Source: Paraburkholderia sp. FT54
GTDB lineage: Bacteria > Pseudomonadota > Gammaproteobacteria > Burkholderiales > Burkholderiaceae
Length of the DNA: 64,000 nucleotides
Direction: 5' to 3'
Assembly: GCF_031585635.1 (NCBI RefSeq)
Contig: NZ_CP134195.1
Location: forward strand, 1,612,001 to 1,676,000
The notes below the pieces were generated by a model. The model was given only the letters and a program-made list of their open reading frames with translations, ran no database searches and was not told the origin of the DNA. Shown piece after piece: positions 51,429 through 55,691 of the stretch; position 1 is the first letter of the stretch, and each line of letters starts with the position of its first letter. A program made the position numbers and the translations under genes.

Positions 51429-53732
51429 TTGTTTAAACCTCATCGCTTTGTTCCAAAGACGGTTATAGCCGCGGCATTCGCCGCGCATGGGCTGGTTGCT
51501 CACGCAACGACGCCCTTCGTGGTGCAAGACATCCGGATCGAGGGATTGCAACGCGTCGAACCTGGTACCGTGTTCGCGTATCTGCCCATCAAGCAAGGCG
51601 ACACTTTCAGCGACGACAAGGCATCGGAGGCCATCCGCGCCCTGTATGCCACGGGCTTCTTCAACGACGTCAAGATCGCGACCGAAGGCAACGTCGTCAT
51701 CGTGCAGGTGCTGGAACGTCCGGCCATCGGCACGATCGACTTCGCCGGCATTCATGAGTTCGACAAGGACAACCTGACCAAGGCGCTGCGCGCCGTGGGT
51801 TTGTCGCAAGGCCGTTACTACGACAAGGCGCTGGTCGACAAAGCCGAGCAGGAACTGAAGCGTCAGTATCTGACACGGGGCTACTACGCCGCTGAAGTCA
51901 CCACCACGATCACGCCGATCGACCGCAACCGTGTGGCCGTGCTGTTCGCGGTGGCCGAAGGTCCGAGCGCGAAGATCCGCCAGATCAACTTCATCGGCAA
52001 CAAGGCGTTCAGCACGGGTACGCTGCGCGACGAAATGCAGTTGTCCACGCCGAACTGGTTCTCGTGGTACACGAAGAACGACCTGTACGCGAAAGACAAG
52101 CTCACCGGCGACCTCGAAAACGTCCGCTCGTATTACCTGAATCGCGGCTACCTCGAGTTCAACATCGACTCGACGCAGGTGTCGATCTCGCCGGACAAGA
52201 AGGACATGTATCTGACGGTCACGCTGCACGAAGGCGAGCCGTACACGATTTCGAACATCAAGCTGGCGGGCAATCTGCTCGACCGCGAGCCGGAGCTGGC
52301 CAAGCTCATCAAGATCAAACCGGGTGACCGCTTCTCGGCTGAAAAGCTGCAAGCCACCACCAAGGCTATCGTCGACAAGCTCGGCGAATACGGCTATGCG
52401 TTCGCCACTGTCAATGCGCAGCCGCAGATCGATCAGGCCAACCACAAGGTCGACCTGACGCTGCAGGTGGACCCGAGCCGCCGCGTCTACGTGCGCCGCA
52501 TCAACGTGGTCGGCAACACGCGTACCCGTGACGAAGTGGTGCGCCGCGAAATGCGCCAGCTCGAAAGCTCGTGGTTCGATTCGAACCGCCTCGCGCTGTC
52601 GAAAGACCGGATCAACCGTCTCGGCTACTTCACGGATGTCGACGTGACCACGGTGCCGGTGGAAGGCACGCCGGACCAGGTGGATGTGGACGTCAAGGTG
52701 GCCGAAAAGCCGACTGGCGCGATCACGCTGGGTGCGGGCTTCTCGTCGACCGACAAGGTGGTGCTCTCGGCCGGCGTGTCGCAGGACAACGTGTTCGGCT
52801 CGGGCACGAGTCTCTCGGTGAACGTGAATACCGCGAAGACGTACCGTACGCTGACGGTCACGCAGGTCGACCCGTACTTCACGGTCGACGGCATCAAGCG
52901 CATTACGGACGTTTATTACCGTACGTACCAGCCGCTGTACTACTCGACGGATTCGAGCTTCAAGATCGTCACGATCGGCGGCGACCTGAAGTTCGGTATT
53001 CCGTTCTCGGAAGTCGACACCGTGTACTTCGGTGCCGGCCTCGAGCAGAACCAGCTGGACGTCGACGCGAACACGCCGCAAAGCTACATCGACTACGTGA
53101 ACAATTTCGGCCGCGTGTCGAACAACGTGCCGATCACGGTGGGCTGGTCGCGCGACGCGCGTGACAGCGCACTGGTGCCGAGCCGCGGCTACTTCACGCA
53201 GGCGAACGCCGAGTACGGCACGCCGATCGGCGGCACGCAGTACTACAAGGCCGACATCAACGCGCAGTACTATTATTCGTTTGCGCGCGGCTTCGTGCTG
53301 GGCTTCAACTTCCAGGGCGGTTACGGTAACGGCCTCGGCGGCAAGCCTTATCCGATTTTCAAGAACTACTACGCGGGCGGTATCGGTTCGGTGCGGGGCT
53401 ACGAGCCGAGCTCGCTGGGTCCGCGCGACGCCAAGACGAACGACCCGATCGGCGGCTCCAAGCTGCTGGTGGGTAACATCGAATTGACGTTCCCGCTGCC
53501 GGGCACGGGCTACGACCGCACGCTGCGGGTCTTCACGTTCCTCGACGGCGGTAACGTCTGGGGTACGGAAGGTAACAGCATCGGCGCCAACGGCCTGCGT
53601 TACGGCTATGGTGTCGGTCTGGCGTGGATCTCGCCGATCGGCCCGCTCAAGCTCAGCCTGGGCTTCCCGCTCACGAAGCACACCGGCGACCAGTATCAGA
53701 AATTCCAGTTCCAGATCGGGACGGCATTCTGA
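51429..53732 (+). CDS. bamA: Outer membrane protein assembly factor BamA
   Basis: Core of the BAM complex that inserts beta-barrel proteins. The 767 residues have a signal peptide (about 1-26, ending LVAHA), five POTRA domains (about 27-345) and a 16-strand barrel domain (about 370-767) with the conserved GGIGSVRGYEPSSLGPRD lid segment and a C-terminal aromatic Phe before the end (IGTAF). The start is TTG, with GGGGAAG upstream. The long opposite-strand frame is a shadow. Confidence 0.98.
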   Translation: MFKPHRFVPKTVIAAAFAAHGLVAHATTPFVVQDIRIEGLQRVEPGTVFAYLPIKQGDTFSDDKASEAIRALYATGFFNDVKIATEGNVVIVQVLERPAIGTIDFAGIHEFDKDNLTKALRAVGLSQGRYYDKALVDKAEQELKRQYLTRGYYAAEVTTTITPIDRNRVAVLFAVAEGPSAKIRQINFIGNKAFSTGTLRDEMQLSTPNWFSWYTKNDLYAKDKLTGDLENVRSYYLNRGYLEFNIDSTQVSISPDKKDMYLTVTLHEGEPYTISNIKLAGNLLDREPELAKLIKIKPGDRFSAEKLQATTKAIVDKLGEYGYAFATVNAQPQIDQANHKVDLTLQVDPSRRVYVRRINVVGNTRTRDEVVRREMRQLESSWFDSNRLALSKDRINRLGYFTDVDVTTVPVEGTPDQVDVDVKVAEKPTGAITLGAGFSSTDKVVLSAGVSQDNVFGSGTSLSVNVNTAKTYRTLTVTQVDPYFTVDGIKRITDVYYRTYQPLYYSTDSSFKIVTIGGDLKFGIPFSEVDTVYFGAGLEQNQLDVDANTPQSYIDYVNNFGRVSNNVPITVGWSRDARDSALVPSRGYFTQANAEYGTPIGGTQYYKADINAQYYYSFARGFVLGFNFQGGYGNGLGGKPYPIFKNYYAGGIGSVRGYEPSSLGPRDAKTNDPIGGSKLLVGNIELTFPLPGTGYDRTLRVFTFLDGGNVWGTEGNSIGANGLRYGYGVGLAWISPIGPLKLSLGFPLTKHTGDQYQKFQFQIGTAF

Positions 53733-53773
53733 TCTGGCTGCAGACGGCCCGGCCAAACTACAGTATCGAGAGG

Positions 53774-54301
53774 ATGACTTTGCTAACCGGTATGTTTTCG
53801 AAACGTGTGGCGTGCGCGCTGGCGCTGGCGATGACCTTGGGTGTCGGGGTCGCCCATGGGCAGGAGGCCAGGATCGCGGCGGTGAATTCCGACCGTATCC
53901 TGCGCGAATCCGCTGCCGCGAAGGCCGCGCAGGTCAAGCTCGAGGCCGAGTTCGCCAAGCGTGACAAGGACCTTGCCGACATGGCGCAGAAGCTGAAGTC
54001 GATGTCCGATTCCCTCGACAAGAACGGCGCGTCCATGTCGCCCGCAGATCGCGCGCAAAAGCAGCGCGATCTGTCGCAACTGGACACGGACTTCCAGCGC
54101 AAGCAACGCGAGTTTCGTGAAGACCTGAACCAGCGCCGCAATGAAGAGCTGGCGGCGGTGCTCGACCGGGCCAACAAGGTGATCAAGCAGATCGCCGAGG
54201 CGCAGCATTACGATCTGATCGTTCAGGAAGCAGTGTATGTGAGCCCGCGCATCGATATCACCGATCAGGTGCTGAAGGCACTGGCGGCTTCGGGTAATTG
54301 A
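53774..54301 (+). CDS. skp: Periplasmic chaperone Skp (OmpH)
   Basis: Holds outer-membrane proteins in the periplasm on their way to BamA. The 175-residue product has a signal peptide (about to VAHG), IAAVNSDRILRESAAAK, and long charged helices forming the coiled tentacles, ending LIVQEAVYVSPRIDITDQVL. The start is uncertain: this ATG touches GAGAGG with no spacer. A TTG at 53780 is spaced better, and an ATG at 53792 is also possible. It lies 41 nt after bamA. Confidence 0.92.
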   Translation: MTLLTGMFSKRVACALALAMTLGVGVAHGQEARIAAVNSDRILRESAAAKAAQVKLEAEFAKRDKDLADMAQKLKSMSDSLDKNGASMSPADRAQKQRDLSQLDTDFQRKQREFREDLNQRRNEELAAVLDRANKVIKQIAEAQHYDLIVQEAVYVSPRIDITDQVLKALAASGN

Positions 54302-54367
54302 ACGTGGTTGCCGAGCGGGATGGCCCGGCAGTAGAACTGACAAGTTGGACTAACAGCAGCGACCATC

Positions 54368-54561
54368 TTGCATGGGATCGGAGTAAGGCGGTGATGCGCC
54401 AACTCGGGTCGACAGCTTTGCATGGGATAGGAGTAAGCGCTAAAGCGCTAACTCGGGTCGACAGCTTTGCATGGGACCAGAGTAAGCGCTAAAGCGCCAA
54501 CTCTGGTCGACAGCTTTGCATGGGATCCGAGTAAGCGCTAAAGCGCTAACTCGGATCGACA
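54368..54561 (+). repeat. Array of four 49-50 bp structured repeats between skp and lpxD
   Basis: Units start TTGCATGGGA at 54368, 54418, 54467 and 54516 (lengths 50, 49, 49, about 46). Each holds an outer stem near GAxxxGAGT / ACTCxxxTC and an inner hairpin, AGCGC-TAAA-GCGCT in copies 2 and 4 (one base changed in copy 3, and GGCG/CGCC in copy 1). Units end CGACAGCT. Copy 3 pairs GACCAGAGT with ACTCTGGTC and copy 4 GATCCGAGT with ACTCGGATC: different but each perfect. The array ends 17 nt before the lpxD start. It lies in a non-coding gap of 277 nt, and the unit length is not a multiple of three. It may belong to the repeated small-RNA type reported in betaproteobacteria (Rfam has a toxic small RNA family), which I cannot confirm. 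Confidence 0.85.
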
Positions 54562-54578
54562 CAGGAGACAGGATAGGC

Positions 54579-55691
54579 ATGGCATTTACGCTCGAGGACA
54601 TCGTCCAACGGTTCGGCGGTGAAGTAGTCGGAGACGGTTCGCAGCGCGTCGGCGGCCTCGCGCCGCTCGACCAGGCAGGCCCGGACCAGCTGGCGTTCCT
54701 CGCCAATCCGAAGTACCTTTCGCAGGTCGAAACGACCCGTGCGGGCGCGGTGTTGATCAACGCCGACGACCTCGCCAAGCTCGCTTCCCGCGAGAATCGT
54801 AACTTCATCGTCACGCCGAATCCGTATGCTTACTTCGCGCGCGTCGCGCAAACTTTCATCGACCTGGCCGCACCCAAGGCAGTCCCCGGCGTGCATCCGA
54901 GCGCGAGCATCGACCCGTCGGCGCAGATTGCCGCGAGCGCGGTGATCGGTCCGCACGTCACGGTGGAAGCAGGCGCGGTGATCGGCGAAAACGTTCGGCT
55001 CGACGCCAATGTCGTGATCGGCCGCGGCACGCGCATCGGCGCGGGCTCGCACCTTTATCCGAATGTCGCCGTGTACCACGGTTGCAAGCTCGGCGAGCGC
55101 GTGATCGTGCACGCCGGCGCGGTGATCGGCTCGGACGGTTTCGGCTTCGCACCGGATTTCATCGGCGAGGGTGAGGCACGTACCGGTAGCTGGGTGAAGA
55201 TTCCGCAGGTCGGCGGCGTGTCGATCGCGGCGGACGTGGAAATCGGCGCGAACACCACCATCGACCGTGGCGCCATGGCCGACACGATCATCGAAGAGTG
55301 CGTGAAGATCGATAACCTCGTGCAGATCGGCCACAATTGCAAGGTCGGCGCCTACACGGTGATCGCCGGCTGCGCGGGCATCGCGGGCAGCACGACGATC
55401 GGACGTCATTGCATGATCGGCGGCGCCGTCGGGATTGCGGGGCACGTCACGCTGGCCGACTATGTGATCGTCACGGCGCAGTCCGGCGTCTCGAAATCGT
55501 TGTTGAAGCCTGGTATGTACACCAGTGCCTTCCCAGCTGTGAACAATGCAGACTGGAACAAGAGCGCGGCTCTGCTGCGCAACATCGGCAAACTCCGCGA
55601 TCGTATCAAGGCGCTTGAAAACGCCGCGGCTGAGCAGCAGGACAGCCCGGCCGCCAACGCGGCAGGCAAGGCCGCAGGCGATAAAGTCTGA
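54579..55691 (+). CDS. lpxD: UDP-3-O-(3-hydroxyacyl)glucosamine N-acyltransferase
   Basis: Third step of lipid A synthesis. The 370 residues have an N-terminal uridine-binding domain (about 1-105), a left-handed beta-helix of hexapeptide repeats (about 108-330) including the catalytic-His region IGHNCKVG, and a C-terminal helix ([12 protein letters not shown]). An extra 25-residue Ala-rich tail ends the protein. The start ATG follows AGGAGA; the open frame above it runs through the repeat array and is not coding. Confidence 0.96.

Follow-up and report, generated by a model that had tools for sequence, protein, structure and literature searches.

In Paraburkholderia sp. FT54, four tandem copies of a short sequence that can fold into a hairpin lie between the gene skp and the gene lpxD. 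Arrays of this kind could represent a regulatory RNA, a group of small RNAs, the product of local slippage or a sequence that inserts, and the question raised by the locus is which of these accounts for it. We consider it likely that the four units of the array are copies of a palindromic element, non-coding and mobile, that belongs to the Burkholderia sensu lato clade. The window referred to below is the whole stretch of 64,000 nucleotides that was analysed (contig NZ_CP134195.1, positions 1,612,001 to 1,676,000 of the forward strand), and the genome to which it belongs is called the host genome.

The array and the fold of its units

The array is located immediately in front of the ribosome binding site of lpxD, and its parts are as follows (positions in the window).

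53624..54301, + strand: skp ORF (periplasmic chaperone), taken from the list of open reading frames; the name is that of the preliminary description and is consistent with gene order
54357..54367, + strand: 5′ extension of unit 1, CAGCGACCATC, recognised from the first copies at other loci and from empty sites
54368..54414, + strand: unit 1, a degenerate hairpin
54418..54463, + strand: unit 2, an imperfect hairpin
54467..54512, + strand: unit 3, a strong hairpin near the consensus
54516..54561, + strand: unit 4, a strong hairpin adjoining the Shine-Dalgarno (SD) sequence
54562..54567, + strand: CAGGAG, the SD of lpxD and the inferred insertion target
54579..55691, + strand: lpxD, encoding UDP-3-O-(3-hydroxymyristoyl)glucosamine N-acyltransferase (NCBIfam TIGR01853 and PRK00892, both over cut-off)

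The units are arranged head-to-tail with a spacing of 50, 49 and 49 nucleotides, which agrees with the four tandem 49-50 bp hairpin units between skp and lpxD that were reported in the preliminary description. The long form of the 5′ extension has a consensus of approximately CAGCAACCATS, and at lpxD its CCAT can pair with the ATGG of unit 1. There are no further sites of the repeat within the window beyond this array.

Each unit is a hairpin of 14 base pairs that is flanked by the conserved sequences UUGCAUGG (5′) and CGACA (3′). When folded singly, copies 3 and 4 at lpxD fold well (z -3.9 and -5.5; 0 of 200 shuffles as good), and copies 1 and 2, which had been described as looser, are indeed unremarkable (z -0.9 and -1.5). 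The complete array of 204 nucleotides has a predicted folding energy of -98.7 kcal/mol (z -8.8). Copies 3 and 4 also carry the compensating change that had been pointed out for them, in which two positions differ (GACCAGAGT/ACTCTGGTC versus GATCCGAGT/ACTCGGATC).

There are 68 units of varying quality that could be delimited from loci of the host genome, and 60 of the 61 units that score at least 32 bits define the consensus TTGCATGGGACCnGAGTAAGCGCTAAAGCGCTAACTCnGGTCGACA; the unit left out (L027:2083-2133) has an internal insertion. Covariation was evaluated for 58 distinct host-genome units against a structure written by hand from this consensus. Pairing is found in 91.9% of 811 cells, double changes affect 9 of the 14 stem pairs (48 cells), and none of 500 shuffles reaches any of five covariation measures. 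Controls in which the structure is slid along the alignment give 36.8% paired cells at most, a comparison that is generous to the structure because the latter was derived from the consensus, and the double changes are therefore the stronger evidence. Covariation over the 58 units is far above both the shuffled and the slid controls. A short upstream open reading frame in the unit (ATG GGA CCN GAG TAA), which was seen by eye, was dropped because there is no SD before the ATG and the stop codon is missing in some copies.

Structured units in tandem might encode small RNAs, for instance of the betaproteobacterial toxic small RNA family (RF02278), with which the preliminary description had compared the unit. 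RF02278 RNAs are likewise structured, occur in the same clade and are present in several copies per genome. However, RF02278 has no match at the lpxD locus, whereas it exceeds the gathering threshold at four other places in the host genome (C1:4184161, C1:214727, C1:629347 and C5:29734). The suggested comparison with Rfam gave zero families at gathering level in the whole window, and a permissive scan of the array region gave a sub-threshold match to naRNA4 along with four weaker matches that were taken for chance. There are also no promoter-like or terminator-like sites at positions 54150-54700 according to a consensus scan. In addition, the double-hairpin RF02278 RNAs are reported not to occur in tandem (PMC5688073). 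We therefore regard an array of small RNAs as very improbable.

Dispersal and filled and empty sites

The copies are clearly not confined to a single locus, which would have been one of the outcomes that speak against the reading in the preliminary description. A search of the host genome (8.6 Mb) with the lpxD array, in which 40 of the 54 candidates from a first look were scored, lists 46 matches distributed over about 40 sites, and the repeat is present in all 35 genus genomes examined, the host included. The number of matches per genus genome ranges from 1 (G034) to 107 (G029), where the counts include some cases in which one palindrome is matched again on the opposite strand. Among genomes from other families of the order the repeat was found in 0 of 24, and the stricter filter used at more than 40 genomes may miss weak matches. 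There are at least 120 contig stretches that match the core pattern, including those from MAGs and from Candidatus Burkholderia crenata, and all of those listed belong to Paraburkholderia, Caballeronia, Trinickia or Burkholderia. This named set contributes 132 listed arrays, two of which are at stretch edges.

Candidatus Burkholderia crenata is a plant leaf symbiont, and there is one copy on its contig (L200). Matches are also found in 23 plasmid or second-replicon records, all from Paraburkholderia, Caballeronia or Burkholderia, and of four plasmid stretches inspected, L339, L340 and L341 are free of annotation, and on L342 the gene starts 27 nucleotides after the match. The phage records searched contain no match to the repeat. 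Within the host genome, there are two places (L033 at C1:1040017 and L035 at C1:1702249) at which the element accompanies the beginning of one and the same etfA-like gene, as if a duplication of the gene had carried the element along. No description of this element was found in the literature searched, which was short of most subscription journals and so cannot prove absence.

The skp-lpxD intergenic region could be compared in 57 of 58 genomes, with G022 left out as its skp-lpxD match was missing among those listed. Although the GGAG in front of lpxD is kept in all 57 regions, units are found in only four of them (the host, L089, as well as L090, L091 and L108, the last with a nested unit). 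In two others (L096 and L097) a remnant is joined to the SD, and neither unit nor remnant is found in 51. Where the site is filled, the copy number is 4, 4, 2 and 1 nested unit. On the sequences compared, the insertion at lpxD is lineage-restricted.

Pairs of filled and empty orthologous sites reveal the size and position of the insert. A filled lpxD site (L091) differs from two empty ones (L092 and L093) by an extra segment between TTTTG(CAG) and CAGGAG. Before atpG, an empty site reads CTTCGATCAAGGAG (L322) and a filled site (L309) has 48 nucleotides between CTTCGAT and CAAGGAG. Before atpC, the filled L322 and the empty L323 differ by 49 nucleotides in front of GGAG. The inserts of 48-49 nucleotides at atpG and atpC each represent one unit, located directly 5′ of CA(A/G)GGAG. 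Among the pairs listed, there are also filled and empty sites before the etfA-like gene (L066 and L178 versus L219), before flgC (L171 and L039 versus L141, with about 55 nucleotides including the 5′ extension) and at one further locus (L061 versus L184). These pairs show that insertion adds one unit, either the short form of 48-49 nucleotides or a form of about 55 nucleotides with the CAACCATS-type extension. As judged from the filled and empty orthologues, the unit enters in one orientation and immediately 5′ of an SD of the CA(A/G)GGAG type, and it leaves the SD intact.

Of 23 genus genomes, 14 have a unit above threshold in front of atpG and 11 have one in front of atpC, compared with 0 of 7 other genomes at either gene. 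The atpG site is an old one with flanks common to the 14 genomes, which indicates that many copies are now inherited and not moving. The 2-3 nucleotides common to the junctions match the GACAGCT junction of the element itself. Apparent duplications of 2-3 nucleotides, in which CAG or CGG is doubled at lpxD and the etfA-like gene, make the junction ambiguous at some sites. First copies at SD sites often have an extra CAACCATS that is absent from tandem copies, a feature that one simple insertion step does not explain.

Some units are nested at the loop of other units (L028 and L108). Further nested units are found at L026, L050 and L055, and at L028 the compensating sequence of the inner stem is distinct from that of the outer stem.

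Arrays with at least two units are polar. Among the matches listed for the named set, 44 of 69 such arrays have a 3′-most unit that exceeds the first in stability, with 13 ties (p=2e-6), and so do 11 of 15 in the host genome (p=0.04). The 3′-most unit, which is usually proximal to the SD, also scores closer to the profile. We infer from this observed polarity that further units would be gained at the SD-proximal end, which would yield head-to-tail arrays whose 3′-most copies are the freshest. Repeated insertion at one target on the SD side predicts such polarity, and it predicts direct rather than inverted arrays. The same polarity would also be expected from selection on the SD-proximal hairpin.

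Local tandem duplication of a lineage-specific spacer by slippage, with no mobility, is in keeping with the periodicity of 49-50 bp and with the variable copy number at lpxD. It does not accommodate about 40 dispersed sites with mostly unrelated flanks, the single-unit insertions at atpG and atpC, or units that are nested inside units. As the sole account slippage is refuted and we give it next to no credence, although it may contribute to the growth of arrays. The preliminary description had seen in the compensating changes a sign of RNA structure as opposed to slippage. Pairing is indeed preserved by such changes, but the contrast omits the explanation favoured here, namely an element that inserts at SD sites.

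Placement in front of Shine-Dalgarno sites

An array was scored as being at an SD if an SD core is found 0-5 nucleotides past the array and is followed by a start codon and an open frame. The frame had to span at least 60 codons for the 40 host-genome arrays; for the named set of at least 120 stretches and for the SD-free sets, it had to span at least 50 codons or run off the stretch, and slightly wider spacing was allowed. In the host genome, 31 of the 40 arrays are at an SD and none of the 40 has one on the opposite side, and random positions in the same loci pass the rule in 360 of 40,000 cases. The nine misses are three nested copies (L026, L028 and L055), two arrays where a partial unit is continuous with the SD (L044 and L047), one whose start codon is more distant from the SD (L049) and three located elsewhere (L037, L038 and L040).

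The value of 31 of 40 is mildly biased because the host query extended into the SD, and this bias is avoided by a set of loci picked with a 46-nucleotide covariance model that excludes the SD (best locus per relative). There are 30 arrays from 29 relatives in this set, of which 26 are followed by an SD and a start codon and none is reversed. The weaker extra host sites comprise 12 loci, 4 of them without a unit above threshold, and 3 of the 8 arrays are at an SD with none reversed. Among the matches listed for the named set, 70 of the 130 non-edge arrays are at an SD, with a spacing of 0-3 nucleotides in 67 of the 70, and 0 of 132 are reversed. The 60 arrays that are off an SD consist of 26 in a terminator-like repeat, 5 that are nested by pattern and 29 others. 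The 29 include several nested or near-SD cases missed by the rule, and some of them (e.g. L202 and L206) are found just before a hairpin followed by T. All four sets pooled contain 0 reversed arrays among 210, and they overlap in part, with some pieces of DNA represented both as a relative's locus and as a named contig.

The 26 arrays in the terminator-like repeat, again among the matches listed, occupy one fixed site inside a GC-rich sequence (CCCCCTCGGGGGG ... GCGAACGATAGTGAGCGTGGGGG). They are found in Trinickia mobilis (19; e.g. L130, L133, L150, L154 and L157), T. terrae (3), Burkholderia catarinensis (3; L151, L165 and L166) and B. aenigmatica (1). The T. mobilis units are identical among the matches listed. 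Since these loci were chosen by a near-consensus pattern, a recent spread of the composite of unit and terminator-like repeat in T. mobilis is a guess.

A fixed orientation and a short distance to the SD are also what one would expect of a cis-acting RNA regulatory or mRNA-stability element, for example an RNase barrier or a protein-binding site, in which case the sites would make up a regulon. The covariation across host-genome copies, the better preservation of 3′-most units and the atpG copy common to 14 of 23 genus genomes all fit this explanation. Orthologous units provide further evidence of the same kind. Those before atpC remain paired and include 7 double-change cells, with neither their covariation score nor their number of paired cells matched by any of 500 shuffles, and those before atpG are weaker (8 of 500 for covariation score and 29 of 500 for paired cells). 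Related sequences inflate these counts, so that selection maintaining the pairing in place at atpC and atpG is only suggested.

However, the genes downstream are functionally mixed, as seen from the 30 of 40 host downstream proteins that were scanned. They include hisC, atpG, atpC, mraZ, araG, flgC and lpxD, genes for an acetyl-CoA acyltransferase (thiolase), galactonate dehydratase, ribokinase and formyl-CoA transferase, etfA-like and fadD-like genes, and others. A regulon is also difficult to reconcile with an lpxD site that lacks a unit in 53 of the 57 genomes, including the two that have a remnant, or with copy numbers that range from 1 to 107 per genome.

Moreover, the element has no effect on predicted SD accessibility across 31 arrays. 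When the array was removed in silico from the first to the last 46-nucleotide core, so that 5′ extensions stayed, the mean predicted unpaired probability of the SD was 0.42 with the element and 0.43 without it, and it was higher with the element in 15 of 31 cases (p=0.88). For the lpxD array alone the values are 0.41 and 0.87, which represents a single case. An effect on translation via SD occlusion was rejected, as there is no systematic predicted change over the 31 arrays. The attenuator that had been proposed earlier finds no support in the unchanged accessibility over the 31 arrays or in the scan around the lpxD array, which shows no promoter-like or terminator-like site. Because predicted SD accessibility is unchanged over the family, the insertion at lpxD is most likely near-neutral for translation. 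A side effect on the stability or processing of intercistronic mRNA would be possible. Taken together, we consider a cis-acting RNA element to be unlikely.

Known repeat families and candidate partners

The mobile element favoured here is REP-like but non-canonical, and it is located at SD sites. REP and BIME sequences, which are associated with TnpAREP in E. coli, Pseudomonas and Stenotrophomonas, are short imperfect palindromes of 20-50 nucleotides that are intergenic and multicopy, occur in clusters and can fold as a single strand. The element shares these characteristics, being a multicopy intergenic imperfect palindrome that forms a hairpin with an internal mismatch. It also has a minus-strand match to naRNA4, which we take to be REP325 RNA, although this is below the cut-off (38.6 versus 59.5 bits gathering). 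Mobilisation of a canonical REP element by an active TnpAREP (RAYT) that the host supplies is therefore another explanation to be considered. Its further appeal is that a RAYT-like Y1 match is found in all 35 genus genomes, once in each and always over positions 8-108 or 8-109 of the profile.

REP sequences carry GTAG or GTGG 0-2 nucleotides 5′ of the hairpin foot, according to two reports (PMC6006769 and PMC8266576). In contrast, there is no GT[AG]G at the foot of the consensus hairpin on either strand, where the feet by eye are CATG/ATGG (+) and TGTC (-). Furthermore, the arrays are direct head-to-tail repeats in a fixed orientation against the SD, unlike the inverted pairs of REP/BIME, and no active TnpAREP was found to accompany the element. 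A REPtron, in which the repeat flanks a tnpAREP gene, was not seen in the loci of 20 relatives or in the host.

There is one intact RAYT-like gene in the host (L057:7386-8090) and one other Y1 gene, which is broken. The intact gene is found upstream of a 1567-aa ORF that we take to be a putative glutamate synthase, and its product matches NF047646 below the cut-off. Among 20 relatives compared (L278-L297), the identity of this protein is 87.6-98.7%. The HuH position reads GAVQLL in 19 of the 20 loci and GAVHLL in one, such that the HuH pattern is absent in all 20, and the Tyr position reads RVVE in all 19 of the 20 loci where it is readable. In eight usable RAYTs from other families, these positions are occupied by N-H-x-H and the Tyr (3 of 11 fetched loci gave none). 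Judged by these residues, the RAYT-like protein is strongly conserved yet catalytically dead, which already contradicts the involvement of that protein as an active TnpAREP.

The gene is also not linked to the element. There are no units within approximately 1.5 kb of it in the loci of the 20 relatives, and none in L057 or L058 of the host genome. These two host genes were rejected as the mover, with the intact RAYT-like copy degenerate and unlinked and the other Y1 gene broken, although another enzyme may act on the element. Y1 matches below 1e-20 are found in G005, G015, G019, G023 and G032, and the high-copy genomes G029, G018 and G009 (107, 86 and 85 matches) have no Y1 match besides the RAYT-like one, which indicates that canonical Y1 transposases do not track copy number. 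Among the Y1 matches of the 35 genus genomes, the host included, no transposase or other mover of the element was identified. A canonical REP element is thus quite improbable.

Two other classes of mobile sequences are comparable in part. Like non-autonomous derivatives of IS200/IS605, the element has a hairpin, appears to be inserted in one orientation next to a short motif and shows at most an ambiguous target duplication of 2-3 nucleotides. Insertion beside a fixed short target, in one orientation and with no duplication, fits the atpG and atpC sites, and CAG or CGG is doubled at lpxD and the etfA-like gene. Unlike these derivatives, the element is essentially all hairpin, and Y1 genes do not follow its copy number.

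Classical MITEs, ERIC, BOX, RUP and Correia sequences are non-coding repeats of small size that are dispersed and extend into untranslated regions. The element is also short, dispersed, non-coding and found in untranslated regions, but it differs from them in its size of 48-57 nucleotides, in its lack of terminal inverted repeat ends and in its placement against the SD. By eye, its ends (CAGCT or CAACC versus TCGA(CA)) are not inverted repeats, and the only sign of a duplication is the junction ambiguity of 2-3 nucleotides.

The mobile palindrome would probably be recognised through its hairpin by a DNA-processing enzyme, and such recognition would explain the compensating changes across copies. 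A broader reading that joins these observations is tentative, and we hold it to be possible rather than probable. The element could represent a new non-coding mobile class that targets the SD itself, in one orientation, and forms hairpin arrays with no loss of the SD, and the hairpin might perhaps be bound by a dead RAYT that has turned regulator. The conserved RAYT-like protein, catalytically dead as its residues suggest, is a candidate partner whose only link to the element is their common clade.

Dispersed bacterial palindromes are usually seen as extragenic sequences whose position with respect to genes is not fixed. A family that is placed in one orientation against the SDs of core genes such as lpxD, atpG and atpC would make the remodelling of leaders by a mobile hairpin testable.
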